Shown here: piece by piece, positions 63 through 22,671 of the stretch
How positions within the stretch are numbered: position 1 is the first letter of the stretch
Layout: the number at the start of each line of letters is the position of its first letter
From: Bacteroidota bacterium
Lineage (GTDB): Bacteria > Bacteroidota > Bacteroidia > Chitinophagales > Saprospiraceae
Assembly: GCA_029567325.1 (NCBI GenBank)
Contig: JAKQLF010000167.1
Location: forward strand, 1-32,965
Direction of reading: 5' to 3'
Length of the DNA stretch: 32,965 nt
Translations under genes and position numbers: made by a program
The notes under the pieces: generated by a model
What the model saw: only the letters and a program-made list of their open reading frames with translations
What the model was told of the DNA's origin: nothing
Databases searched by the model: none

Positions 63-773
63 TCAAAAGTGGTACACTTTGAATGAGATAAGGTGGTACA
101 CTTTCATGAGATTTTGCAGTTTAGGAAGAACTTTAGCCTTAACTTCTTCAAAAAAAGCGTTCAGACTGCAGTTGTAACTTAAAAATTTCCCTCGCTTAAT
201 CTCCTTTTCTTTTGAAAGAGGCTTACTGATAACAAGAAAATTATCATAGTTCGAAGTGGAATTTATTCCCTTTTTACCCAATATCCGACCTAGCTTCTCT
301 TTTGGTTTTGCTGAAGTGCTGGAATCATTTTGATCATAAATAGTAAGTATCCAGGCATCAATTTCTTCGATTGCAACTGCATATAAAATTTGATCGGACA
401 TTTCCACTTTAAGCCATGCATTGATTTGCTTTACAACCAATTCTCGCAATTCTTCACAATACGCATCGGAACTCTTATCGGGGCGCTTAATTCCATACAT
501 TTCTGCTTCCGCCGTGTCAATATGGATAACCACAAAATCCTGGCCTTCAAATGCAAGAAATCCATCAATCAACTCACGTTTTTCGCATTCTTCTTTTACC
601 ACAGACCAAGTGCTAAATGCTTTTGTGTTTATAAGCGCCTTATCCGTTTCATCATAATTATAGATTGGCCTTATGGCCTCTATATTATTCCGATCAATTC
701 CAGTTAAACCTGTAATTATGTTTGTAATGACTGCTCTATCGGCATGTCCTTCCGAAATAACTCCAATTTTCAT
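63..773 (-). CDS. DUF4276/TOPRIM-like protein, putative effector of the ATPase-methyltransferase locus
   Basis: This 236-residue protein is the last gene of the operon. The ATG at 773 is chosen over an upstream in-frame start because it follows the ATPase stop (775) by 1 bp. The first strand and loop, GVISEGHAD (E8), resemble the hhxEGxxD motif of TOPRIM/DUF4276 proteins. A second acidic cluster, VVIHIDTAEAE (D86, E89, E91), and AIEEIDAWIL (E136-E137) match the layout of DUF4276, where an E(L/I)(E/D)AW motif is conserved. Proteins of this type are commonly encoded next to OLD/SMC-like ATPases and are thought to be their nuclease or effector partners; that role is inferred here. The last 14 residues (MKVYHLISFKVYHF) are encoded by the terminal repeats of a presumed IS21-like element, so the native C-terminus is probably replaced. 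Most of the fold should remain because the length is near normal for the family. Activity is uncertain. Confidence 0.65.
   Translation of the reverse strand: MKIGVISEGHADRAVITNIITGLTGIDRNNIEAIRPIYNYDETDKALINTKAFSTWSVVKEECEKRELIDGFLAFEGQDFVVIHIDTAEAEMYGIKRPDKSSDAYCEELRELVVKQINAWLKVEMSDQILYAVAIEEIDAWILTIYDQNDSSTSAKPKEKLGRILGKKGINSTSNYDNFLVISKPLSKEKEIKRGKFLSYNCSLNAFFEEVKAKVLPKLQNLMKVYHLISFKVYHF
66..106. mobile_element. Putative end of an IS21-like element (terminal repeats only)
   Basis: Two near-identical 15-mers, AAAGTGGTACACTTT (66-80) and AAGGTGGTACACTTT (90-104), lie 24 bp apart. They are followed by CA at 105-106, which fits the TG...CA termini of IS21-family elements. Repeated short motifs inside the ends are typical of that family, and I recall similar GTGGTACACTTT repeats at IS21-like ends in Bacteroidota. 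No istA/istB is visible, so the body would lie left of position 1. The element identity is inference from the repeats and the CA end. Confidence 0.45.
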
Positions 774-774
774 A

Positions 775-2400
775 TTAGAAATTTTTGGGAACAGCACCAA
801 GCAATCCTTTTAACCACATTTCAGATAGTTTGAAATTTTTATCGCTTAAGTTCTCTTTGAATTTTATTCTTCTAGTTTTGGTTTTTCCTTCACTATCTCT
901 ATAGACTTCAAACAATCTTTGTTCTTCATCTAATAAATTCAAACCATCCAAGATAGCCGGATTGTGAGTGGTTATTAAAACCTGTTTTTCTGTCTGTTTA
1001 GTAATTTTCACCAACTCGGATACTAGAACTTGACACAACCGAGGATTCAGCGCTGTCTCTATATTGTCAATTGCAAACAACTTTGGTGTCTTAGTGCTTA
1101 TAAAGAGAGCCAAATAGAATAGGACATGCAACACTCCTTCATTTGAATTTTCTGCTGAAAAAGTATTATTATTCTTTTGCATGAATTTGTCCTTGAAGTA
1201 TAAGGTAGATATGCTTCGTCCGGGCTTCAACCCCATAATCTTAAACTTATCCTCTTTATCAGCGATGATCTCTCCTAGCCAATCAAAAAAGACAAGGCAC
1301 TTATTAAGTTGAGCTCGTTCTGCACTACTAAAGCTTGCAATTAATAAGTCAAGTCCTTCTCCATTAATCCCCAGCGGTGTTTTTTTACTATCTGAGGGTG
1401 TTATCCCTCTTAAGGATTTTGTATTTAAGTCAAAAATTGAATATTCTGATAAAAGGTCGTCAAAATTTCGATCACGTTTTAGGCCCTTAGCTGAGATCAA
1501 TTCATTTGCTTTTTTTAACAACTCATCTCCAGAAATTCCGGGAGTCTTTTTAGTTATAAAACTGAAATAATCTAAAAGAAAGTCAGGATAAAGTTCTTCT
1601 TCAGCAAGATTAATCCATTTGGTATAAATATCATTAAGATTTGCCGGTGATAATGAGCATTTGTAATCTTCTTGGCCAGCTTTACTTTCTATAGTAAGAC
1701 TGATATCAATACTGCTCTTCTGACTACTATCTACAAATGAACTTAAAATTAAATCAGGACGCGCTATGCGAACCCCACGACTATATAAACCGTCAAAAGA
1801 CAAATCATTTCCCCGTTCCGCTCCAACTGTTGCAAGTGCCTCAAGTATATTTGTTTTTCCGCATCCATTCACACCAATAAAAACATTGAATCTTCCTAAT
1901 TCGATTTTATCATTAACTATTGATTTATAACTACTGATATCAATAGTTTTTATTAAAACAGATGGTTTTGATTCTCTTGGAATTTGACTCTTGTACTTTA
2001 TGTAGTTTTCTAATGCCAATTCCCATTCCGAAGTATTATATTTTTTTATTGTATTTAGCGCCAAAAAGGAAATAGCGTAATGTGTATTCGGGCTCGTTGG
2101 CGGTAAATCAGGATTGTCGGGATTCTTTTCAATAAGACCAAACTCAACGAAGGGATTTATAGCCTCTTTTCGAAAAGATTCCCTAGTACCTGATTTATAT
2201 TCAATGTGGTAGTTGCTGCTAACAAATTCCATTATATCTGTCGAAAGAATCATGCTCTTTCTTTCCGCATCCTTCCATTCGTCATTTGGCTTTATATTGC
2301 AAAGCGCTAACAGTGTCAATGCTGATATCTGATTCTGCTGACCCTGCGGAAGTTCGAATCCCTTTAAGATTTCCTGTGCTTCGATTATTTTATTGTTCAT
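775..2400 (-). CDS. Fusion protein: BsuBI/PstI restriction enzyme N-terminal domain + OLD/SMC-like AAA ATPase
   Basis: The product has 541 residues from the ATG at 2400, which overlaps the methyltransferase stop by 11 bp; a longer start at 2460 would add 20 unlikely residues. Residues 1-135 carry the pattern I know from the N-terminal (helix-turn-helix) domain of BsuBI/PstI endonucleases: QQN and SALTLLAL (21-33), W42, IMEF (56-59), GTRESFR (71-77), FVEFGL, NPDNPD (93-98), SPNTHYAI and a late W126. The nuclease part is absent. Instead residues 148-541 form an ABC/OLD-type ATPase with Walker A GVNGCGKT (176-183), a signature-like NEG, Walker B LFAIDN (D445), the D-loop ALNP, and an H-loop TTHNP (H479). 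The N-terminal part probably binds DNA, and the ATPase probably acts with the TOPRIM-like protein encoded 1 bp downstream. Function is inferred from domains; the fusion appears to be genuine, with no stop or frameshift at the junction. Confidence 0.8.
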   Translation of the reverse strand: MNNKIIEAQEILKGFELPQGQQNQISALTLLALCNIKPNDEWKDAERKSMILSTDIMEFVSSNYHIEYKSGTRESFRKEAINPFVEFGLIEKNPDNPDLPPTSPNTHYAISFLALNTIKKYNTSEWELALENYIKYKSQIPRESKPSVLIKTIDISSYKSIVNDKIELGRFNVFIGVNGCGKTNILEALATVGAERGNDLSFDGLYSRGVRIARPDLILSSFVDSSQKSSIDISLTIESKAGQEDYKCSLSPANLNDIYTKWINLAEEELYPDFLLDYFSFITKKTPGISGDELLKKANELISAKGLKRDRNFDDLLSEYSIFDLNTKSLRGITPSDSKKTPLGINGEGLDLLIASFSSAERAQLNKCLVFFDWLGEIIADKEDKFKIMGLKPGRSISTLYFKDKFMQKNNNTFSAENSNEGVLHVLFYLALFISTKTPKLFAIDNIETALNPRLCQVLVSELVKITKQTEKQVLITTHNPAILDGLNLLDEEQRLFEVYRDSEGKTKTRRIKFKENLSDKNFKLSEMWLKGLLGAVPKNF

Positions 2401-4012
2401 ATGCTGTTGATAAATCAATTGATAAACTAAATACCTCTGACACCAAAGCGTCAATTTCATATGACTTTTTCGCTTTGATAATCTTGTTCATTCTTCGACC
2501 CAAAGTTTCAATTAAATGAAATTCTGGCAAAGGGAATTCCCTCAATTCAGTCGCACTTACATTAATATTTCCATTAAACGTTCTAAAATACAAATCGAAT
2601 AAACGACTATTCAGAATTGCCGCTAAGCCGATAGTTTGTTCAATGGTTAATTCATGTTTTTTATGATAGATATAATTTAAGTGATTTTCTATACCGATCA
2701 TTTTCATATCTGAGTGATGTCGGCTAAAAAAAGGCGCAGCTACTAATCGCCGATTATCATCCTTTGTGCTAAACCTTCTAACCAAGACATAATTCCTGCC
2801 CTTTACTAGCCTTGAAAGGGATTCTTTTTCATTAATAATATATTGTCCCTTAGGTTTTCCCTTGTAACCATTATTTCTAGGCCAAATAACGTTCATCGAT
2901 TCAACATTGTGCAGCCATATAAGAGGCACGGTGTTTTTAGATGGTTTAGGTTTGATCATAGAAGTACTCCTAAAATCAACGACTGGTCCTGTAGATATTT
3001 CCAAATCATACAATTTTAATGAGCCAGTCCAGGTCTTAAAAACTTCGATAATTTTCTCATCCGTGTCGGAAGTTGGTAAATGCAATATTTTCTGGTAGGA
3101 ATCTAAGTTTATCAAACTTCTATATTCATATCTTTTTATTCGTCTCTGACCAATGTCGCTTATTCCGGACGAGGCTGATATTATCAAATCCTTTTCAATG
3201 TATGAGTTATTAGATTCTGTTTTGCTGCTTTTGGCAGCTTTGATAATAATATTCTCTTGAAGTACTTTATCTTTTTTAAAGGCCGACTTCCTAGAATTAA
3301 AAAGATGTATTTCTTTTAAATCAACAATTGAGAAGAATATTTCCCGAAATAATCTAAAATAATTTCCCGAACAAAAACTTCTAGGAGTGATAAAAATCAA
3401 ATGTCCATCGTCCTTTAAAAGCTTAGCTGCAATTAGAAGAAAAATTGTGTAAATATTAGTCTGACCATTAATCACTGATTTCGCTGCTAAAGCTCTCTCA
3501 TCATCACCGGGTAGTTTAAAATAAGGTGGATTTGAAATTACGATATCATAGGTTTCGTTTGATTTTTCAACATTATTTAATACCACAGAATTGTGTAAGA
3601 TGAAATCGTTCTTGCATAAGAAAATTGTAAAATCAATATTCCTTTCATTCAGCCAAATTCTCAAATACTCAAAACAACTTTCTGCAAACGGAAGGATATT
3701 AACATCTGTTTCGAACACAACTAATTCAAGTCGTCTTATTTTCTTCGTTCTTGTTGCCAGTTGTTCGATAAGTGCAATTGACAATATTCCTATACCACAT
3801 CCTGGGTCCAAAATTCGAATATCTTCTTTTTCTACTTTGGCAAAAGAAGCCATAAACATGGCAATCTCAAGTGGAGTAAAAAACTGACCATTGTCTTTTT
3901 TATGCGCATTGGTAACGGTAGAAGCATAATAAATCCCTACCCGATCCGCATATGCAGACGGACTTTCATCAGCTAATGGTATAATAGGAAAATCATACAC
4001 GTCTTTCTTCAT
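2390..4012 (-). CDS. Gamma-class N6-adenine DNA methyltransferase, BsuBI/PstI/Eco57I type
   Basis: This 540-residue enzyme should transfer a methyl group from S-adenosylmethionine to adenine in a short DNA site. Visible motifs in gamma order are GQFFTP (42-47, motif X), DPGCGIG (69-75, SAM-binding motif I), an acidic strand VVFETD (98-103), and NPPY (161-164, catalytic motif IV). A region ending in ITPRSF follows (motif VI-VIII area), then LQENIII. The remaining C-terminal half is expected to be the target recognition domain. Sequence style matches methyltransferases paired with BsuBI/PstI restriction enzymes rather than HsdM. The start at 4012 lies 8 bp after the XRE stop, with a GGAG-like element inside the end of the XRE gene; the end overlaps the ATPase gene by 11 bp, implying coupled translation. 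It probably marks self DNA so that the ATPase/TOPRIM-like pair spares it. The recognition site cannot be read from the sequence. Confidence 0.88.
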   Translation of the reverse strand: MKKDVYDFPIIPLADESPSAYADRVGIYYASTVTNAHKKDNGQFFTPLEIAMFMASFAKVEKEDIRILDPGCGIGILSIALIEQLATRTKKIRRLELVVFETDVNILPFAESCFEYLRIWLNERNIDFTIFLCKNDFILHNSVVLNNVEKSNETYDIVISNPPYFKLPGDDERALAAKSVINGQTNIYTIFLLIAAKLLKDDGHLIFITPRSFCSGNYFRLFREIFFSIVDLKEIHLFNSRKSAFKKDKVLQENIIIKAAKSSKTESNNSYIEKDLIISASSGISDIGQRRIKRYEYRSLINLDSYQKILHLPTSDTDEKIIEVFKTWTGSLKLYDLEISTGPVVDFRSTSMIKPKPSKNTVPLIWLHNVESMNVIWPRNNGYKGKPKGQYIINEKESLSRLVKGRNYVLVRRFSTKDDNRRLVAAPFFSRHHSDMKMIGIENHLNYIYHKKHELTIEQTIGLAAILNSRLFDLYFRTFNGNINVSATELREFPLPEFHLIETLGRRMNKIIKAKKSYEIDALVSEVFSLSIDLSTAYEQ

Positions 4013-4020
4013 CTTGTAAA

Positions 4021-4233
4021 CTACTCCTTCGTAGATATTAGCAATTCCCTGATATCTACATTTAACGCAATCGCTATTTCTCGTAATAGCTTTAATGTTG
4101 GCTGACTATCATTATTACATATTCGTGTAATAGTGTTCGGTGTTCTTTTCACCTTTTTTGCCAAATCTTTCTGTGCAATATCCTTTTCAACTAAAACACT
4201 CTTAATTCGATTGATTTTGATTTTACCCGCCAT
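4021..4233 (-). CDS. XRE-family transcriptional regulator, controller-like
   Basis: This 70-residue protein is little more than one Cro/C1-type helix-turn-helix. The first HTH helix is KDIAQKDLAKKV and the recognition helix is NTITRICNND, followed by QPTLKLLREIAIALNVDIRELL, typical of XRE proteins. It is the first gene of a four-gene operon, 8 bp ahead of the methyltransferase. Small XRE proteins in this position in restriction-modification loci (C proteins) time expression so that methylation precedes the toxic activity; that role is inferred here from position and size. Candidate binding sites are the repeats at 4294-4311 and 4355-4388 in the upstream spacer. Confidence 0.85.
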   Translation of the reverse strand: MAGKIKINRIKSVLVEKDIAQKDLAKKVKRTPNTITRICNNDSQPTLKLLREIAIALNVDIRELLISTKE

Positions 4234-4354: not shown

Positions 4355-4388
4355 TACATAATATTATATTTAATAAACATATTATGTA
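4355..4388. promoter_or_regulatory. Perfect 10-bp inverted repeat TACATAATAT / ATATTATGTA, candidate operator
   Basis: The arms at 4355-4364 and 4379-4388 are exact reverse complements, separated by 14 bp. The right arm covers a possible ATG at 4384, an argument for the later start at 4414 for the divergent gene. It may be the operator or promoter of that gene or of the defence operon. AT-rich DNA makes chance repeats more likely, so confidence is moderate. Confidence 0.35.
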
Positions 4389-4413
4389 TGTTTGTAGCAT
4401 AAAACATTTTTTC

Positions 4414-4912
4414 ATGGACAAAGAAAAAATTAAGAGAAGACTTATCCTTTCACTAATAAAGGATGACCTGATCAACTCGAAGCTAGTAAATAGTCTTGGT
4501 GACATTGGGATCAATGCTGATGATTATTTGCTTCATCTTAGCGATACAAATTTCAAACTCTCAAAAATACCAGATACACAAACTTCAAAGCGATAAATAC
4601 TATTTCCTTTCTGTACTAAGGGAGATTTTTTCTGAGTTCAAAAAGTTAGGTGATAATGAATTGGAATACTACTGTGGTAGCTGCCAAAATTGTGAATTAA
4701 ACCAAAATAAAGTGGTACATGTATTTGAAGGAATGCACTCAAAGAGTCATTTCGGATTTATTCCGGTTGTTCAAAACAATCCTAACATGGGTTTTCATTT
4801 TTGCTTTGGATTTACAGATAAAAAGGGGCAAAAAGCTGATAACTGTTACGACTTCATGTACTTAGCTGCAAGTAAATTAGTTGAATTTAAAAAAAGAGGT
4901 ATCAAATCCTAA
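4414..4912 (+). pseudogene. Unknown protein, probably split by a frameshift near 4590
   Basis: Two overlapping open frames make one sensible protein. The first, from ATG 4414, reads MDKEKIKRRLILSLIKDDL and ends with TSKR at a stop at 4594-4596. The second continues in the +1-shifted frame from about 4570 with QSDKYYFLSVLREIFSEFKK to a stop at 4912. The second frame has no convincing start of its own: its nearest ATG (4496) yields an unnatural leader. The distal part has four cysteines, two of them in CGSCQNC, which could bind metal. I do not recognise the family. The gene is divergent from the XRE regulator, so it may be a passenger or an extra part of the defence locus. A sequencing error, a true pseudogene and a programmed shift cannot be told apart here. 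Confidence 0.5.
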
Positions 4913-8378: not shown

Positions 8379-8390
8379 TTGATTGTTATT
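8367..8390. terminator. AT-rich hairpin at a convergent gene junction
   Basis: AATAACAA (8367-8374) and TTGTTATT (8383-8390) form an 8-bp stem with an 8-nt loop, spanning the stops of the patatin gene (plus) and the adhesin-like gene (minus). It could end transcription from both sides, but there is no long T tract and the stem is weak. Confidence 0.3.
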
Positions 8391-11300
8391 TGATCACGGT
8401 GATGTCTCGTTTTGTTTCAAATATATTCCCGTTTTTGAGCTTGGCTCTTATATAAACAGCATATACTCCAGGCAAAAGCGCATCCCCTTTCAAACTTGGG
8501 TTCCAGCCATCTCCTGGAAGTCCAGGAACTAGGTCTAGTCTATTCCAGACCATATTTCCCCAACGATCAAAAATGGATACTTGTTCTACCATTTCAACAC
8601 CTTGATTGTCTGGTAAGAAAAAAACCGAATTGACAGTCATGGCGGCACTAGTAGAAATGATATTTGGCAAAGGCCAATCTATAGACTCCGCAACAAAGAT
8701 CTGCATCGTATCATAAACAGGGCATCCTAGCGTATCAATCAATTCTGCAACCACGATTCCTGAAATCAGTCCGTCAAAATCAATAGATGCACAATTGGTA
8801 CATATTTCTTCTCCATTGAAAAACCAATTGACTGATCCTACTAAGTTACTCGCAAGGTTGGTGTTGTAATTTATAGGCAACACATCACCTAGCCTCAAAC
8901 TTGTATCTGCAGGAAGAAAAACTTCAAAAAATAAAGCCGATGGAACATTGATGCTTTTGATTAGCTCACAGCCATATAAATCTGCCAATGTTACTATGTA
9001 TTGTCGAGCTATAAGGCCAGCTATCAATGAATCGCTAATCACATCTCCAGGTCTGTTGATACTGATTTTATATGGGCCGATACCTCCAATTACATTTACG
9101 AGTTCGATTTGTCCATCGTTGTCTCCTACACATGTTGGAGCTTTGGGAAATGCATTGAATTCAACCAAAGTACTGCTTTCTTGAACTATAGTAATAGAAG
9201 AAGTATCAAAACAATTATTGATCAAATCCTTGATAATCAGAGAGTAAGTGCCAGGCTTGGTAACTTCAACGATGCTGTCAGAAGGTGAACCAGAGAAAGT
9301 GCCTCCCGAAAAAGTCCACGTATATTCTAATCTGGAGGGATCAAAATGATTGATTTCGCTGATGAGATTGACCTCCGTATTTTTACATAATAAAGGCGTT
9401 TCTTGACTGATGTTGACGATGGAAGGTTGATTTTGGTCGATGGTGATAGTGCGCATAAATGTATCAAAACAGTTGAGGCTTCTTTCTACGATCAGTGTAT
9501 AATCACCTGCTAACCGGCTACTAAACGTTGGAATAGTGTCAAGCCGTTGATTATCTGGCGTAAGCCAGTAATAGTTGATATTTGGCGTACTTATATTTGC
9601 GGTCAAAGTGGTAGAATCAGGATCACACAAGATGTTTAATCCGTCAATGGACGCATTTGTCACTCTCAAATCTGGTACAATGGTAAAGCTAGCTTGCGCT
9701 TGACAATTTTCTTGTGATAAGACATTGACCACTATTCTCCCAGGAACGGTGGTTGCCAAAGTATCCATTGTGGAAAGGACGGCCGTCGGGCTTATCCAAC
9801 GATACAGTTTTAGAGGTTGATCTGAAGTCACAGTTACAATAGCAGAATCCCCGTTACAAGGTATAAAAACTGTATCTGGCACACTGATGACAGGAATTCG
9901 TTTATCATCTACTATGGTAATGGAGTCAGAAGCAATACAACCGTTGCGTTCAATAGCAGTTAGAACATAATTTCCTGCCACAGTCACTCTTAAATCTTTT
10001 AAAACCGATGCATAAGTTCCTGGTCCCTTCCATTTATATTCTATGATATTGGTGATGCTATCGACATTGATTTGAGCAAACGATCTGAAGCAAGTCAAAG
10101 AATCGGACCTCAAAGAAAAGCTGGGTGGCATTGTATCAATAGCTACAGTAATTGAGTCAGTAACAAGACACTTGTTTGATGATCTAATGGTTGCAAAATA
10201 AGTACCCGGACGACTTACAGAATATAAACTGTCTATTCGGATGGTGCTGCTGTCTGGTCCCATCCATGAGATATCCAACAAAGGTTTGTCAATTGAAAAA
10301 CCAATTGAAACACCAGGGCTAAAACAAGTAATGGTATCTGAAATTTTTCTCAAAACCACTGGAGGAATAGAATCTCTCCCTACAATAATGCTATCATTGT
10401 AAACACATCCCAGAATACTCGTCATTTCAAAAGAATAAGTACCGGGTAAAGTTGGTTCATAGGTGAGCACACCATCTGCAATGGGTTCAGGTCCAGTCCA
10501 AACGATGGTTTGAAGGTTTTGCGTGTCGGTCAAAGCTATGAAGCCTTTTTCGCAACCTACCACTTCAGAAATTGCATTGTATTGTACAGTATCTCTCAAA
10601 TCCAGTACTGTGATGGAGTCTCTGATGATACAACCACGATTGTCAGTACTAGTGAAAGAATATATTCCTGGTGTGGTAACATTCAGTGTATCTGTATTGC
10701 TTGCCAAAATGCTAGTGTCTCTCCTCCAAACTACGTTGCGCACTAGCTCCGAGCTCGAAAAACTAATTGTTGGTATTGGATTGGTACATTCGATATCTTT
10801 GGGAAGTAGGTTGATAATAGGTGCAAGAGTGTCAAAAGCCAATCTGATGGTTTGGGGAGGCGACATACAGTTATTGGAGGGTCGCACAGCTCTGACTGTG
10901 AAAACACCATTGGTGTTATTGAAGTTGAACTCTGGTCTGCCAATTCTCACTTGAGCATTGTTGGAGAATACAGCAGATCCTCCCGACCAAACAAATCGAT
11001 CACCCGCATTGTCTGAGCGCGCAGTAATCAGAATTGAAAAATTGTTGTCGCAGTATATAGTATCAAAAGCTTTTACCGCCACGGTATCCAAAATCGGCAA
11101 AATGACGTCGTGGATAATGGTAAAGGTGTCTTTGAGATTACAACCTTTGAGCGTGGTCAATTTATAAACGTAAGTACCTTCTTGTAAGTCATCAATCGTG
11201 AGCATATTGGAGGTAAATCCATTTGGCCCTGTCCATTCTATGCCTTGCATTTTACTAAGAGTGTCTATACTCACAGCAATAGAGGCTGTAGAATTGGTTG

Positions 11301-13860
11301 TACATGTTTTTTTCGTAATGACAGAATCCAAAACCGGTAAATCTCTTTCGTCGCCAACTTGAATTTCTTTTTTAATGATGCAATTGGTCGTTCTATCTAT
11401 TGCGTGCACCCTATATATACCCGGTTCTTGAACCAAAGCGATGGCTTGATTTAAAGGTGATATGATGGGTGGGGATAATGAATCAATCCACACATATCTG
11501 TAATTCATGGTGTCTTGCGGAATGAGCTGTATCGTATCCATCGAACAGTCCACGATGATGTCTGGTGCAAAAGTAGGATCTGCTACAGAAATGAAAAGGG
11601 TGATGTTTGCTGTATCTCTACTTGCACATCCGTTTGCAAATCTTGCTTCCCCAAAGTATTGACCGACAGCAGAGACGGTAGGAACAGCTTCAGATGAATT
11701 AAAATTGAAAGGACCATTCCAAGAATATGTGGCGGTTGCAATTTGTTGTGTGAGCTTGAGTTGCACGGTATTCATGACACAACTGATGCTGTCATCAGCC
11801 ACATCAAACACTGGAAATTCGTTTCGTTGTGTGATTTGAATGTTGGTATTTGGAGCGTCACAACCACTGGCAGATGTAAAACTCAAACTATAAGCTCCAT
11901 CAATCAAAACTCTTTGCTGCAAACCATTGGGTGTAAAAACGGCACCACCTGGTCCATTCCAGATTAGCGTTCCTGCAGGTCTGTCAGCGACAGCTTGAAC
12001 CCATACTTCATTACCTCTACAAAATGTTTCTAAACTTACATTAGGGATATAACTCGTATCGCGGACATTCACTATTGCACTCACAGGACATCCATTCCTA
12101 GTCATAACTGCGTCTACCTTATAAATACCCGTGGAAACCACATTCTCTGGAAAACTTACAGTTTCAAAAACCCCGGATGTTTCGTTTCTATGAAAATAGT
12201 TGGATGTTGTGCTAAAAATAGATGCATTATTGATGCTCAATGAAGTACTCCTATTTCTACAGTCAAAATCCATTGGATTGGCGACAAGTTGTGGCAAGGT
12301 TGTGGCTGTGTCTATGGCTACGCTTACAGATACAGGAACAATACAGCCATCAGCGTGTGTAACAAGACCATTGTAATTACCTGGAATGCCTATGGAAAGT
12401 CCATCCGGTGGTAATGGGCTCCCAACTCCCATCCAATCAATGTTTGTGATCGCAAATGAAGATGAAGTTGTCACCCGAAGTGTGGCCAAAGGTTCAGTGC
12501 AAGTTATAGTATCTGTATTTACTGTCAAGGTAGGTGTTGTGGGATCGTATTCGATGGTTAAACTAGTCATGTCCGTGCATCCTTGATCATTGACAACCAA
12601 ATTGTAAGTTCCTATTCTATCAATATTGGCCGTATCCAAATTACTGGAAGTAATATTTCCATCTGTGCTAGACCAGGTATAGGTTGCTAAATTGGTATAC
12701 CCAGTTTTAACGGCAGTCAACTGTATGGAACTGAGATTACATGCCAAGTTTGGATTGTCTGCAACAATGGAAGGATTGAGATCAATGACTTTAAGATCGA
12801 TCACATAAATGGTGTCACACAAGTTTGGATCGACAGAAGAAACTGGTACATAAAAAGTGTCCTGTGTCGTGAAACTTAGGTTCCTAAATTGATAAGAACT
12901 ACCATTACAAATTGGTGTGGGAGTAATAAATACGGAGTCTTTCACGGGTTTTGCAATGAGATCGATGCAAGTATTGGATACTGCTCCACAAAGTCCGAGT
13001 CTGGCAAATTCTGATCCAAAATCACCTTGATTGATGATAGAACCAACTATCGGCAGTTTTGCTGTATCCAAGGCTAAAACACTAAATTGACAAACTTTAT
13101 AGGTCCCAGGTGACAATTGGTTGAGGTCCAATGTGTTTCCAGAATACGCTTCTATTCTGGTTCCACTGGTTATCACGTATCTATTGATGTATTGAGGAGA
13201 TGGAGATTGTCCTTGTGGAAATCTTGTGATGGCACCAAAATTATACGTTTCATTGGTGCAATAGCTATCACTGGCTATGGTAAAAGTACCTGCTCTTGTG
13301 TCGCAAAATTGTGTGTTAATATTTTTGGAATTACAAAATTCAATCGAAATACAAGCCAGGGTTCCCACATCAAACTGTGATACATCTTCTATCTCAAGCA
13401 CCCAAGTACCATTGATTTGGCCCGTATTTAAACTCTCAAAGCAGCCGTTGTATGGATAATAACTGCCACCAATTTGTGAGCCAAACCAAATTTGATCGTT
13501 GTCCCATCTGGCGCTATACCCCAATGCTGGAACAGCTGTAGCCATACATTGTACCAAAGATATGTTGTATTCTATTGGTGGGAAAGAAGGATTGGAAGGC
13601 GCAGTTGCAGGTCCCAAGAGATCAATTTTTTGACCGCTTGGTGATACCAGACTCATCCGCAATTGATTGATAGACTCGTGGTTGAACTGCAAGTCTATCT
13701 TACAAATTTTGTCATTGGTGAGATCTGTCGTAGCACCAGAAATGATGATAGGAATAGTTACAAAACGATCATCTGGAATACTGAAATTTTGCAGAATACA
13801 GGATTGTGCTGTGATCTGACAAGACAAAAGAATTAGCAATAAAAGTACAAAAGCTCTCAA
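8386..13860 (-). CDS. Giant T9SS-exported adhesin-like protein with P-domain, Ig-like repeats, SprB repeat and type-B sorting domain
   Basis: This 1824-residue protein begins with a signal peptide (to about residue 19). A proprotein-convertase P-domain-like region follows (about 20-178, ending in GTWVLEIED...C). From about 285 to 1550 come roughly 15 Ig/PKD-like repeats of 80-90 residues. Each has a central Trp, often WxGP (WNGPGG, WTGPNG, WMGPDS, WKGPGT), a conserved Cys and a GxY strand near the end. A SprB-type repeat is at about 1560-1640 (CVGDNDGQIEL...GGIGPY). The last ~90 residues (from about 1735) are the gliding-motility-associated C-terminal domain: VSIFDRWGNMVW, LLPGVYAVYI, ending ITVIK. 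It should be exported by T9SS and held at or released from the cell surface, perhaps for adhesion or gliding. No catalytic domain was recognised. Confidence 0.88.
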   Translation of the reverse strand: MRAFVLLLLILLSCQITAQSCILQNFSIPDDRFVTIPIIISGATTDLTNDKICKIDLQFNHESINQLRMSLVSPSGQKIDLLGPATAPSNPSFPPIEYNISLVQCMATAVPALGYSARWDNDQIWFGSQIGGSYYPYNGCFESLNTGQINGTWVLEIEDVSQFDVGTLACISIEFCNSKNINTQFCDTRAGTFTIASDSYCTNETYNFGAITRFPQGQSPSPQYINRYVITSGTRIEAYSGNTLDLNQLSPGTYKVCQFSVLALDTAKLPIVGSIINQGDFGSEFARLGLCGAVSNTCIDLIAKPVKDSVFITPTPICNGSSYQFRNLSFTTQDTFYVPVSSVDPNLCDTIYVIDLKVIDLNPSIVADNPNLACNLSSIQLTAVKTGYTNLATYTWSSTDGNITSSNLDTANIDRIGTYNLVVNDQGCTDMTSLTIEYDPTTPTLTVNTDTITCTEPLATLRVTTSSSFAITNIDWMGVGSPLPPDGLSIGIPGNYNGLVTHADGCIVPVSVSVAIDTATTLPQLVANPMDFDCRNRSTSLSINNASIFSTTSNYFHRNETSGVFETVSFPENVVSTGIYKVDAVMTRNGCPVSAIVNVRDTSYIPNVSLETFCRGNEVWVQAVADRPAGTLIWNGPGGAVFTPNGLQQRVLIDGAYSLSFTSASGCDAPNTNIQITQRNEFPVFDVADDSISCVMNTVQLKLTQQIATATYSWNGPFNFNSSEAVPTVSAVGQYFGEARFANGCASRDTANITLFISVADPTFAPDIIVDCSMDTIQLIPQDTMNYRYVWIDSLSPPIISPLNQAIALVQEPGIYRVHAIDRTTNCIIKKEIQVGDERDLPVLDSVITKKTCTTNSTASIAVSIDTLSKMQGIEWTGPNGFTSNMLTIDDLQEGTYVYKLTTLKGCNLKDTFTIIHDVILPILDTVAVKAFDTIYCDNNFSILITARSDNAGDRFVWSGGSAVFSNNAQVRIGRPEFNFNNTNGVFTVRAVRPSNNCMSPPQTIRLAFDTLAPIINLLPKDIECTNPIPTISFSSSELVRNVVWRRDTSILASNTDTLNVTTPGIYSFTSTDNRGCIIRDSITVLDLRDTVQYNAISEVVGCEKGFIALTDTQNLQTIVWTGPEPIADGVLTYEPTLPGTYSFEMTSILGCVYNDSIIVGRDSIPPVVLRKISDTITCFSPGVSIGFSIDKPLLDISWMGPDSSTIRIDSLYSVSRPGTYFATIRSSNKCLVTDSITVAIDTMPPSFSLRSDSLTCFRSFAQINVDSITNIIEYKWKGPGTYASVLKDLRVTVAGNYVLTAIERNGCIASDSITIVDDKRIPVISVPDTVFIPCNGDSAIVTVTSDQPLKLYRWISPTAVLSTMDTLATTVPGRIVVNVLSQENCQAQASFTIVPDLRVTNASIDGLNILCDPDSTTLTANISTPNINYYWLTPDNQRLDTIPTFSSRLAGDYTLIVERSLNCFDTFMRTITIDQNQPSIVNISQETPLLCKNTEVNLISEINHFDPSRLEYTWTFSGGTFSGSPSDSIVEVTKPGTYSLIIKDLINNCFDTSSITIVQESSTLVEFNAFPKAPTCVGDNDGQIELVNVIGGIGPYKISINRPGDVISDSLIAGLIARQYIVTLADLYGCELIKSINVPSALFFEVFLPADTSLRLGDVLPINYNTNLASNLVGSVNWFFNGEEICTNCASIDFDGLISGIVVAELIDTLGCPVYDTMQIFVAESIDWPLPNIISTSAAMTVNSVFFLPDNQGVEMVEQVSIFDRWGNMVWNRLDLVPGLPGDGWNPSLKGDALLPGVYAVYIRAKLKNGNIFETKRDITVIK

Positions 13861-22297: not shown

Positions 22298-22661
22298 GGG
22301 GTTGACCGGTATCGACAGGGAAGTGATCTGGTTAGTAAGCATGTCGGAGCAAGGTTGCTCACTCCGTTAAAAATGGTAATCGAACAATAATTGGCGAGTC
22401 TAACTACGCCTTGGCTGCTTAATTTTAGAAATTAAGTGCCTTGAAGCACCTTGCTTGATTCCTGGTACACAGCAAGACGCTTTCAAAAACTTCAGGATAG
22501 ACCATCAGAGTTTCTTGGCTGGTGATCGAAACTTAAAAGGATAGGGGAGGCATACGTCGTCTTTATACTGACGCCCGACCGAAATCCCTGAATAAAGACT
22601 AAACATGTAGAAGGCTTTCAAGAGCTTTGTCTGGACAGGAGTTCGATTCTCCTCAGCTCCA
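22298..22661 (+). ncRNA. ssrA: tmRNA (transfer-messenger RNA)
   Basis: The 5' end GGGGTTGACCGGTATCGACAGGG and the 3' T-arm AGGAG-TTCGATT-CTCCT followed by CAGCTCC-A are diagnostic of tmRNA. GGGGTTG (22298-22304) pairs with CAGCTCC (22654-22660), leaving discriminator A22661. The mRNA-like part encodes the tag GESNYALAA (22393-22419, stop TAA 22420-22422), close to other Bacteroidota tags. With SmpB it rescues stalled ribosomes and marks the peptide for proteolysis. The bases after the discriminator are CTCCA, so CCA is not encoded directly and would need to be added. An intrinsic terminator follows. Confidence 0.97.
22393..22422 (+). other. tmRNA proteolysis tag reading frame (GESNYALAA-stop)
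   Basis: GGC is the presumed resume codon. The frame GGC-GAG-TCT-AAC-TAC-GCC-TTG-GCT-GCT-TAA ends in LAA, the hydrophobic C-terminus recognised by tail-specific proteases such as ClpXP. Confidence 0.9.
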
Positions 22662-22671
22662 CTCCAAAATC

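Follow-up and report, generated by a model that had tools for sequence, protein, structure and literature searches.

What becomes of a restriction-modification (RM) system when the cutting half of its endonuclease gives way to an ATPase? The question is raised by a 32,965-nucleotide stretch of DNA from a Bacteroidota bacterium (GenBank assembly GCA_029567325.1, contig JAKQLF010000167.1), which in its full length is referred to below as the window. A preliminary description of this DNA reported four overlapping or abutting genes at positions 63-4233, and we find all four there as open reading frames (ORFs) on the minus strand: an XRE regulator, a methyltransferase (MTase), a fusion ATPase and a putative nuclease. 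We consider it moderately probable that they encode a composite immune system in which the cutting domain of a BsuBI/PstI-type enzyme was replaced in place by an ATPase-nuclease cassette of the PDC-M31 kind, with the MTase kept, and that the result is a modification-linked form of DNA restriction. The sequence comparisons below establish the domain make-up of the locus, the loss of the cutting domain, the conservation of gene order and the action of purifying selection, together with a probable single origin of the fusion. The features are these:

4021..4233, minus strand: XRE/HTH_3 regulator of 70 amino acids, an optional part (HTH_3, E 3e-11)
2390..4012, minus strand: N6-adenine DNA MTase of 540 amino acids, of the type found in BsuBI/PstI systems (Eco57I, E 2e-17; N6_Mtase, 4e-11; PADLOC MTase_II, E 7e-108)
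775..2400, minus strand: fusion ATPase gene, 541 amino acids, BsuBI/PstI N-terminal winged helix plus SMC/PtuA-like ATPase
1981..2400, minus strand: winged-helix domain of the fusion (residues 1-140), homologous to the N terminus of the BsuBI/PstI/SdaI endonucleases (PF17728; SdaI 2ixs)
775..1956, minus strand: SMC/PtuA-like ABC ATPase domain of the fusion (residues 149-541), PDC-M31A type (E 4e-86)
63..773, minus strand: putative TOPRIM-like nuclease of 236 amino acids, PDC-M31B/RloB/DUF4276-like (PDC-M31B, E 4e-10)

The MTase and ATPase genes overlap by 11 bases (an alternative upstream start of the ATPase at 2460 would make the overlap larger), and the nuclease gene starts one base past the ATPase stop. 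The preliminary description had proposed that an endonuclease N-terminal domain is fused to the ATPase, and profile searches bear this out. Residues 3-136 of the fusion match PF17728 (BsuBI_PstI_RE_N) with an E value of 1.3e-39 and 135.6 bits against a cut-off of 27, and a sequence search of solved structures matches the same N terminus to the SdaI endonuclease (2ixs, E 1e-16). Residues 150-539 match the PADLOC profile PDC-M31A (E 3.9e-86), and AAA_21, AAA_15 and SMC_N match within the same part. In a 50-row alignment PF17728 matches 25 rows, as many as the 14 fusions and 11 endonuclease N termini in it add up to, and PDC-M31A matches all 39 ATPase rows. Walker A, the IDNIE motif of the Walker B region and the TTHNP motif of the H-loop are retained in the 14 aligned fusions, that of the window included. 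An AlphaFold model of the fusion has a mean predicted local distance difference test (pLDDT) score of 88.8, and its best Foldseek matches are retron Eco8, PtuA and SMC heads (E 1e-11 to 1e-9, with template-modeling scores of 0.3-0.4 over the whole chain).

BsuBI/PstI endonucleases carry a C-terminal cutting domain of the PD-(D/E)XK type. We searched for this domain with a profile of 28 endonuclease C-terminal parts, leaving out the long-branched L028 and L047 here and in the helix comparison below, and found no match at E 10 in the window or in 14 further fusion loci (locus numbers, L, are our own); the controls scored E 4e-88 or better and were themselves among the 28 members. A hidden cutting domain in the fusion loci was rejected on this result, and an ordinary BsuBI/PstI endonuclease elsewhere in the same genome was rejected as well, PF17728 matching there once. 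The two halves of the fusion were also traced separately. PF17728 was found in 27 of 395 genomes of the same phylum, own genome included; the frame in the window is 570 amino acids long and those in the other 26 genomes are 211-351, endonuclease-sized or shorter. With the window protein as query, 13 of 395 genomes of the same class matched at E 1e-20, again counting its own, and the matches were either stand-alone ATPases (query residues 137-541 or part of them) or endonuclease N termini (residues 3-154 or part), and the own genome alone had both halves within a single frame. Because the halves occur apart in these genomes, we conclude that the fusion drew on two sources, namely a BsuBI/PstI-type restriction enzyme that neighbors its MTase and an ATPase that, together with a small partner, stands alone.

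An ATPase-profile scan of one genome per species, covering 84,980 species, served as the neighborhood search that the preliminary description had proposed, and among the best 80 loci, which were the ones examined, we found at least 14 further fusion loci, all in Bacteroidota (loci L036-L041 repeat L049-L054 and were dropped from all counts). The gene order is thus not unique to this genome. The carriers are Pedobacter steynii, P. alluvionis, Mucilaginibacter, two Chryseobacterium, Fulvivirga, Owenweeksia, Mariniphaga, one member of the Cryomorphaceae, one of the Flammeovirgaceae and four Bacteroidota assemblies not placed further, and they span at least 6 named families, as families are read by the tree tool. 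Directly downstream of the fusion lies a nuclease gene in 14 of 14 loci, cut by the contig end in L058. In 11 of the 12 loci where the upstream position could be judged, an MTase gene is the immediate neighbor, either complete or cut by a contig end (L062, L064), and the twelfth, L057, holds a remnant of one; the contigs of the other two loci, L056 and L066, begin inside the ATPase gene. The fusion locus is apparently rare but conserved: of 399 genomes of the family of P. steynii, 2 carry the fusion, both already among the 14, and 2 others match by the ATPase part only (E 1e-40), the one region that was read being a stand-alone cassette. A tblastn search of phages with the fusion gave 3 records, all of them matching less than 80% of the query, a single-protein scan of viral contigs gave no relative, and a tblastn search of plasmids with the putative nuclease found none.

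These relatives also bear on whether the arrangement is a product of chance adjacency, a frameshift or an assembly artefact. The locus lies at a contig end, 62 bases separating the stop of the putative nuclease gene from the contig start, and the assembly consists of 402 contigs, with contamination put at 4.93%. However, 13 further loci, taken from different assemblies that include named isolates, hold the fusion as a single open frame (it is complete in 11, and in L056 and L066 it is cut by the contig start; the ATPase of L064 is broken and was left out of the ATPase and winged-helix sets). The artefact explanation was rejected on these grounds and has, in our judgment, almost no probability. 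Since the contig begins so close to the last gene, the end of the operon was judged from the ORFs of the relatives. Read by eye, these show no further gene in common past the nuclease, some contigs ending soon after it, and we rejected on this reading the idea that a fifth conserved gene lies past the contig end.

Purifying selection acts on all four genes. Between the window and its nearest relative, L055, the ratio of nonsynonymous to synonymous divergence (dN/dS, NG86) is 0.011 for the XRE gene, 0.089 for the MTase gene, 0.048 for the fusion and 0.068 for the nuclease gene, with dS at 0.56-0.81. In the winged-helix tree the fusions fall on one side of a branch (14 of 42 rows, support 90/100), as they do in the ATPase tree (14 of 108 rows, support 99) and as their partners do in the nuclease tree (14 of 92 rows, support 95), the latter two supports coming from a quick method. 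This suggests that the fusion probably arose once. Three loci (L013, L043 and L044) were left out of the winged-helix and MTase trees as repeats, and L026, L027 and L029 were unmatched by the query; the nuclease of L058 was left out of the nuclease tree and of the motif count that follows.

The partner protein was labeled DUF4276/TOPRIM-like in the preliminary description, a label that holds for part of its family and not for the protein itself: the window protein has no Pfam family match, and 17 of 50 aligned family members match DUF4276 (best 8.7e-7). The window protein does match PDC-M31B (E 3.8e-10), as do 48 of the 50, with 7 matching RloB and 2 matching OLD-like_TOPRIM weakly. Residues E8, G9, D86 and W141 are invariant over the 50 sequences, and the EG..D and EE..AW motifs are retained in 14 of 14 aligned partners from fusion loci. 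The second acidic motif reads DTAE or DSAE in 12 of the 14 and DADC in L061 and L062; several distant relatives have DTD. In a model of the partner (pLDDT 92), E8 stands just past strand 1 and D86 closes the strand formed by residues 78-86, a strand order and placement of acidic residues that we take to be as expected of TOPRIM.

As for the modifying enzyme, the MTase is related to those that stand beside PF17728 endonucleases in 30 loci (best E 6e-156), and its DPGCG and NPPY motifs are intact in 10 of 10 fusion-linked MTases uncut by a contig end. The regulator is less constant. The XRE protein is 98.6% identical between the window and L055, and a helix-turn-helix (HTH) gene occupies its position in 4 of 9 fusion loci that could be assessed, that is, those with a complete MTase gene and at least 300 bases of room upstream; the four are the window, L055, L065 and L061, the last with a more distant gene. 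No HTH gene was seen upstream in L058, L059, L060, L063 or L111 when the frames were read by eye, and a Pfam search of five upstream ORFs in L058, L060 and L063 gave none. The XRE gene is optional, and of the four-gene system first proposed, three genes form the core. Divergent from the XRE gene, a small gene is common to the window (4384-4912) and its nearest relative (L055:3646-3930); the window copy was read in two overlapping frames and may be frameshifted. Transfer RNA (tRNA) genes lie upstream of the MTase gene in L060 (3983-4225, within about 110 bases), L063 (2918-2993, about 320 bases) and L061 (3337-3409, about 1000 bases); in all, 4 of 11 fusion loci scanned hold one, the fourth being L065 at a distance of about 2300 bases. 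Such genes may serve as landing sites for fusion loci.

On the evidence of profile matches, the ATPase and nuclease taken alone are the PADLOC candidate PDC-M31, and this pair occurs widely in stand-alone form. Without this MTase the cassette is found on plasmids of Acinetobacter (two), Enterobacter, Paracoccus, Azospirillum and Pseudanabaena; the stand-alone ATPase is found in many genomes and on 16 contigs of a viral collection (L135-L150), with a partner-like ORF in place on 13 of these. The cassette may thus travel on prophages or similar elements. A same-strand ORF of more than 100 amino acids lies within 60 nucleotides of 80 of the 94 stand-alone ATPases, and 64 of these ORFs are recognizably related to the window nuclease. 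Around the same 94 ATPases we found only 9 ORFs of at least 200 amino acids with an NPPY-like motif, a survey in which 14 of the loci hold less than 900 bases upstream and whose motif can miss MTases. Four of the nine look MTase-like by eye (L085, L127, L149, L150), and none adjoins the cassette. The link to an MTase thus appears to go with the winged helix and the fusion.

If the composite reading is correct, the system would work as follows. The MTase would mark host adenines, and the winged helix would let the ATPase engage DNA that lacks the mark or bears another foreign feature. The ATPase is probably a dimer or a higher oligomer, by analogy with PtuA. Binding or hydrolysis of ATP would then license the TOPRIM-like partner to cut nucleic acid, so that the whole would resemble restriction, would depend on ATP and would read DNA through a borrowed domain. 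We thus infer, with the preliminary description, an immunity that is methylation-guarded and ATP-dependent.

Several observations weigh against this reading, and the first of them concern the MTase and the partner. In the MTase tree the 11 fusion-linked MTases, among 38 rows, form two groups around endonuclease-linked MTases (2 changes), and they come together as one group in 7% of bootstrap trees, the starred branches not forcing two. Given the two groups, the MTase may have been exchanged once. A partial Mantel comparison of MTase and winged-helix distances, given ATPase distance, gave -0.33 for 10 loci (-0.23 for 9), and hence no sign of a specific co-variation or of a common target to which both would have adapted. 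The partner model has no Foldseek match in the PDB at E 0.001 (best E 0.086) and none among viral models at that threshold, where the best match (E 0.1) is an RloB-like protein. The term TOPRIM-like nuclease is therefore used here in a putative sense.

The MTase results in particular would suit two independent neighbors, that is, an MTase surviving from a decayed RM system beside a PDC-M31 pair of the stand-alone kind in which the ATPase gained a winged helix, with no working tie between MTase and pair. A specific co-variation of MTase and winged helix is lacking, the MTase phylogeny is not fully congruent, and the MTase of P. steynii has decayed. Nevertheless, MTase distance follows ATPase distance once winged-helix distance is allowed for (partial r 0.74 over 10 loci, 0.73 over 9), the gene order has been kept across the families named above, and every gene is under purifying selection. 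We regard two unconnected neighbors as improbable.

The remaining contrary evidence comes from the winged helix and from P. steynii. We took the alignment columns that are conserved among 13 near endonuclease systems, themselves selected on the MTase tree, and counted the cells kept in the two fusion groups and in three endonuclease groups outside the 13; the regions were drawn post hoc, the helix window of residues 69-86 having been picked after the cutting-domain comparison. L056, L057, L062 and L066 were left out of the helix comparison, and L062 (cut) and L057 (remnant) out of the MTase column counts. In the putative recognition helix the fusion groups keep 38 of 91 and 17 of 39 endonuclease-conserved cells, and the three endonuclease groups keep 26 of 26, 12 of 13 and 110 of 130. 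In the wing (residues 87-110) the corresponding figures are 54 of 76 and 25 of 33 cells for the fusions and 18 of 22, 7 of 11 and 74 of 110 for the other endonuclease groups. Over the rest of the winged helix the fusions keep 170 of 210 and 83 of 90, as compared with 45 of 60, 23 of 30 and 199 of 300. For the MTase, fusion loci keep 775 of 854 and 296 of 366 cells, and the other groups 208 of 244, 89 of 122 and 721 of 1220. Helix cells have therefore been lost and MTase cells kept, indicating that it is the reading helix that diverged and the marking enzyme that stayed as it was; some of the divergence could come from lost contacts to the vanished cutting domain. In P. steynii, intact fusion and nuclease genes stand beside a degenerate C-terminal remnant of the MTase (L057:5400-6010), and this remnant, a 93-amino-acid frame, is the single match to the MTase in that genome (E 1e-10). 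This state hints at one of three things: the effector does not kill in the absence of the MTase, it is inactive in P. steynii, or an unrelated MTase takes over the protection. A strictly toxic nuclease guarded by the MTase is consequently disfavored, unless the effector is inactive or another MTase covers.

It is these observations that lend weight to an abortive infection (Abi) mechanism, in which the ATPase and nuclease would form an infection sensor and effector of the AbiL, PARIS or PDC-M31 kind and the winged helix and MTase would serve as bait or regulator rather than in self/non-self restriction. A phage that seizes or blocks either the MTase or the mark it makes might, for example, set off the effector. 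Besides the altered helix next to a conserved MTase and the effector that P. steynii keeps with an MTase remnant, the occurrence of the pair as a unit without this MTase fits such a mechanism, as do the related profiles, which include AriA, AbiLi and NsnB. By contrast, the purifying selection on the MTase and its linkage in 11 of 12 loci argue against it, and the conservation shared with the endonucleases outside the helix and wing points to retained DNA binding. We hold an Abi mechanism to be possible though not probable. The composite reading could also take a more particular form, which we put forward tentatively and rather doubt: with its winged helix re-tuned, the SMC/PtuA-like ATPase would watch the sites of the MTase, or the MTase itself, and would unleash the separate, putative TOPRIM-like nuclease, in a form of restriction that needs ATP but neither a helicase or translocase nor a type II cutting domain.

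Other genes near the fusion loci and in the window were noted in passing. Directly downstream of the partner, L056 (2123-4143) and L057 (8287-10324) carry two look-alike genes, GmrSD_N (DUF262) and another, and the second of these in L057 matches RelA/SpoT; L059 has a GmrSD_N and HEPN pair on the other strand. At some distance upstream in L057 (720-1956) and L058 (2632-3913), a protein that by eye is response-regulator-like is followed by an HNH protein, possibly another defense cassette. The window itself holds a transfer-messenger RNA gene at 22298-22662 (tag peptide GESNYALAA) and, at 8386-13860, a very long open frame of 1824 amino acids that by eye resembles a secreted, repeat-rich surface protein.

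How does the locus compare with known defense systems? The preliminary description had set it apart from PARIS, Gabija and Septu, and the profiles agree. The partner of PARIS, AriB, is a DUF4435 protein, and neither PADLOC nor Pfam gives an AriB or DUF4435 match for the window nuclease. In Gabija, GajA joins an ATPase and a TOPRIM on one chain and works with the GajB helicase; here the ATPase chain has no TOPRIM profile and there is no helicase among the four genes. The partner in Septu, PtuB, is an HNH protein, and the partner here has no HNH profile. BREX was rejected at 36.6 of 500 bits for the PglX equivalog, and MADS at 28 of 720 bits for MAD2 and 41 of 420 for MAD3, these being equivalog cut-offs. 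As regards BREX and DISARM, no profile for PglZ or a helicase matches any of the four genes, a result that covers these genes and a few scanned neighbors in relatives, the other neighbors having been read as ORFs. AbiL was rejected because AbiLi, at 1e-18, falls far below PDC-M31A and AbiLii matches 1 of 50 partners, which is not that of the window. As to the claim that the system is undescribed, the fusion and its link to the MTase are named in no profile of PADLOC, NCBIfam or Pfam, whereas the ATPase-nuclease pair is already catalogued in PADLOC as candidate PDC-M31A/B. The composite is not named among the matches listed in the literature searched, nor was the term PDC-M31 found in it, a literature with few subscription papers and without preprints. 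Each part is known by itself (BsuBI/PstI-type MTase, winged helix and PDC-M31), and the composite was not found named. For want of the cutting domain the locus falls outside BsuBI/PstI RM proper, and it includes a PDC-M31 pair.

Set beside its relatives, the locus shares the ATPase fold, by Foldseek, with Septu PtuAB, the effectors of retrons Eco8 and Ec78, and Gabija GajA, but differs from them in having a separate RloB/DUF4276-like partner. To AbiL, HEC-01 and Mad3/Mad4 of MADS it is related by ATPase profiles (HEC-01A at 1e-28 and mad3 at 2e-15, besides AbiLi) and, weakly, by nuclease family, yet none of their profiles matches the winged helix; MADS, too, couples an ATPase and DUF4276/RloB-like pair to an MTase. 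The stand-alone PDC-M31 members agree with it in ATPase, partner and gene order but are without the winged helix and the neighboring MTase. The type II RM systems of BsuBI, PstI and SdaI have the same MTase family directly upstream and the same N-terminal winged helix in the next gene, whereas here an ABC ATPase replaces the C-terminal cutting domain and a putative nuclease gene is added. The locus therefore looks like a case of effector swapping inside an RM system, with the DNA-reading half of a type II enzyme kept and its cutting half traded for an ATPase-nuclease pair, itself a defense candidate that spreads on its own too. If this is true, it would offer a compact system in which to ask, through a familiar and separable winged helix, how SMC/PtuA-like ATPases choose DNA; it would give a specificity-based entry into the PDC-M31 family; and it would link modification-based and Abi-like immunity by one fusion.

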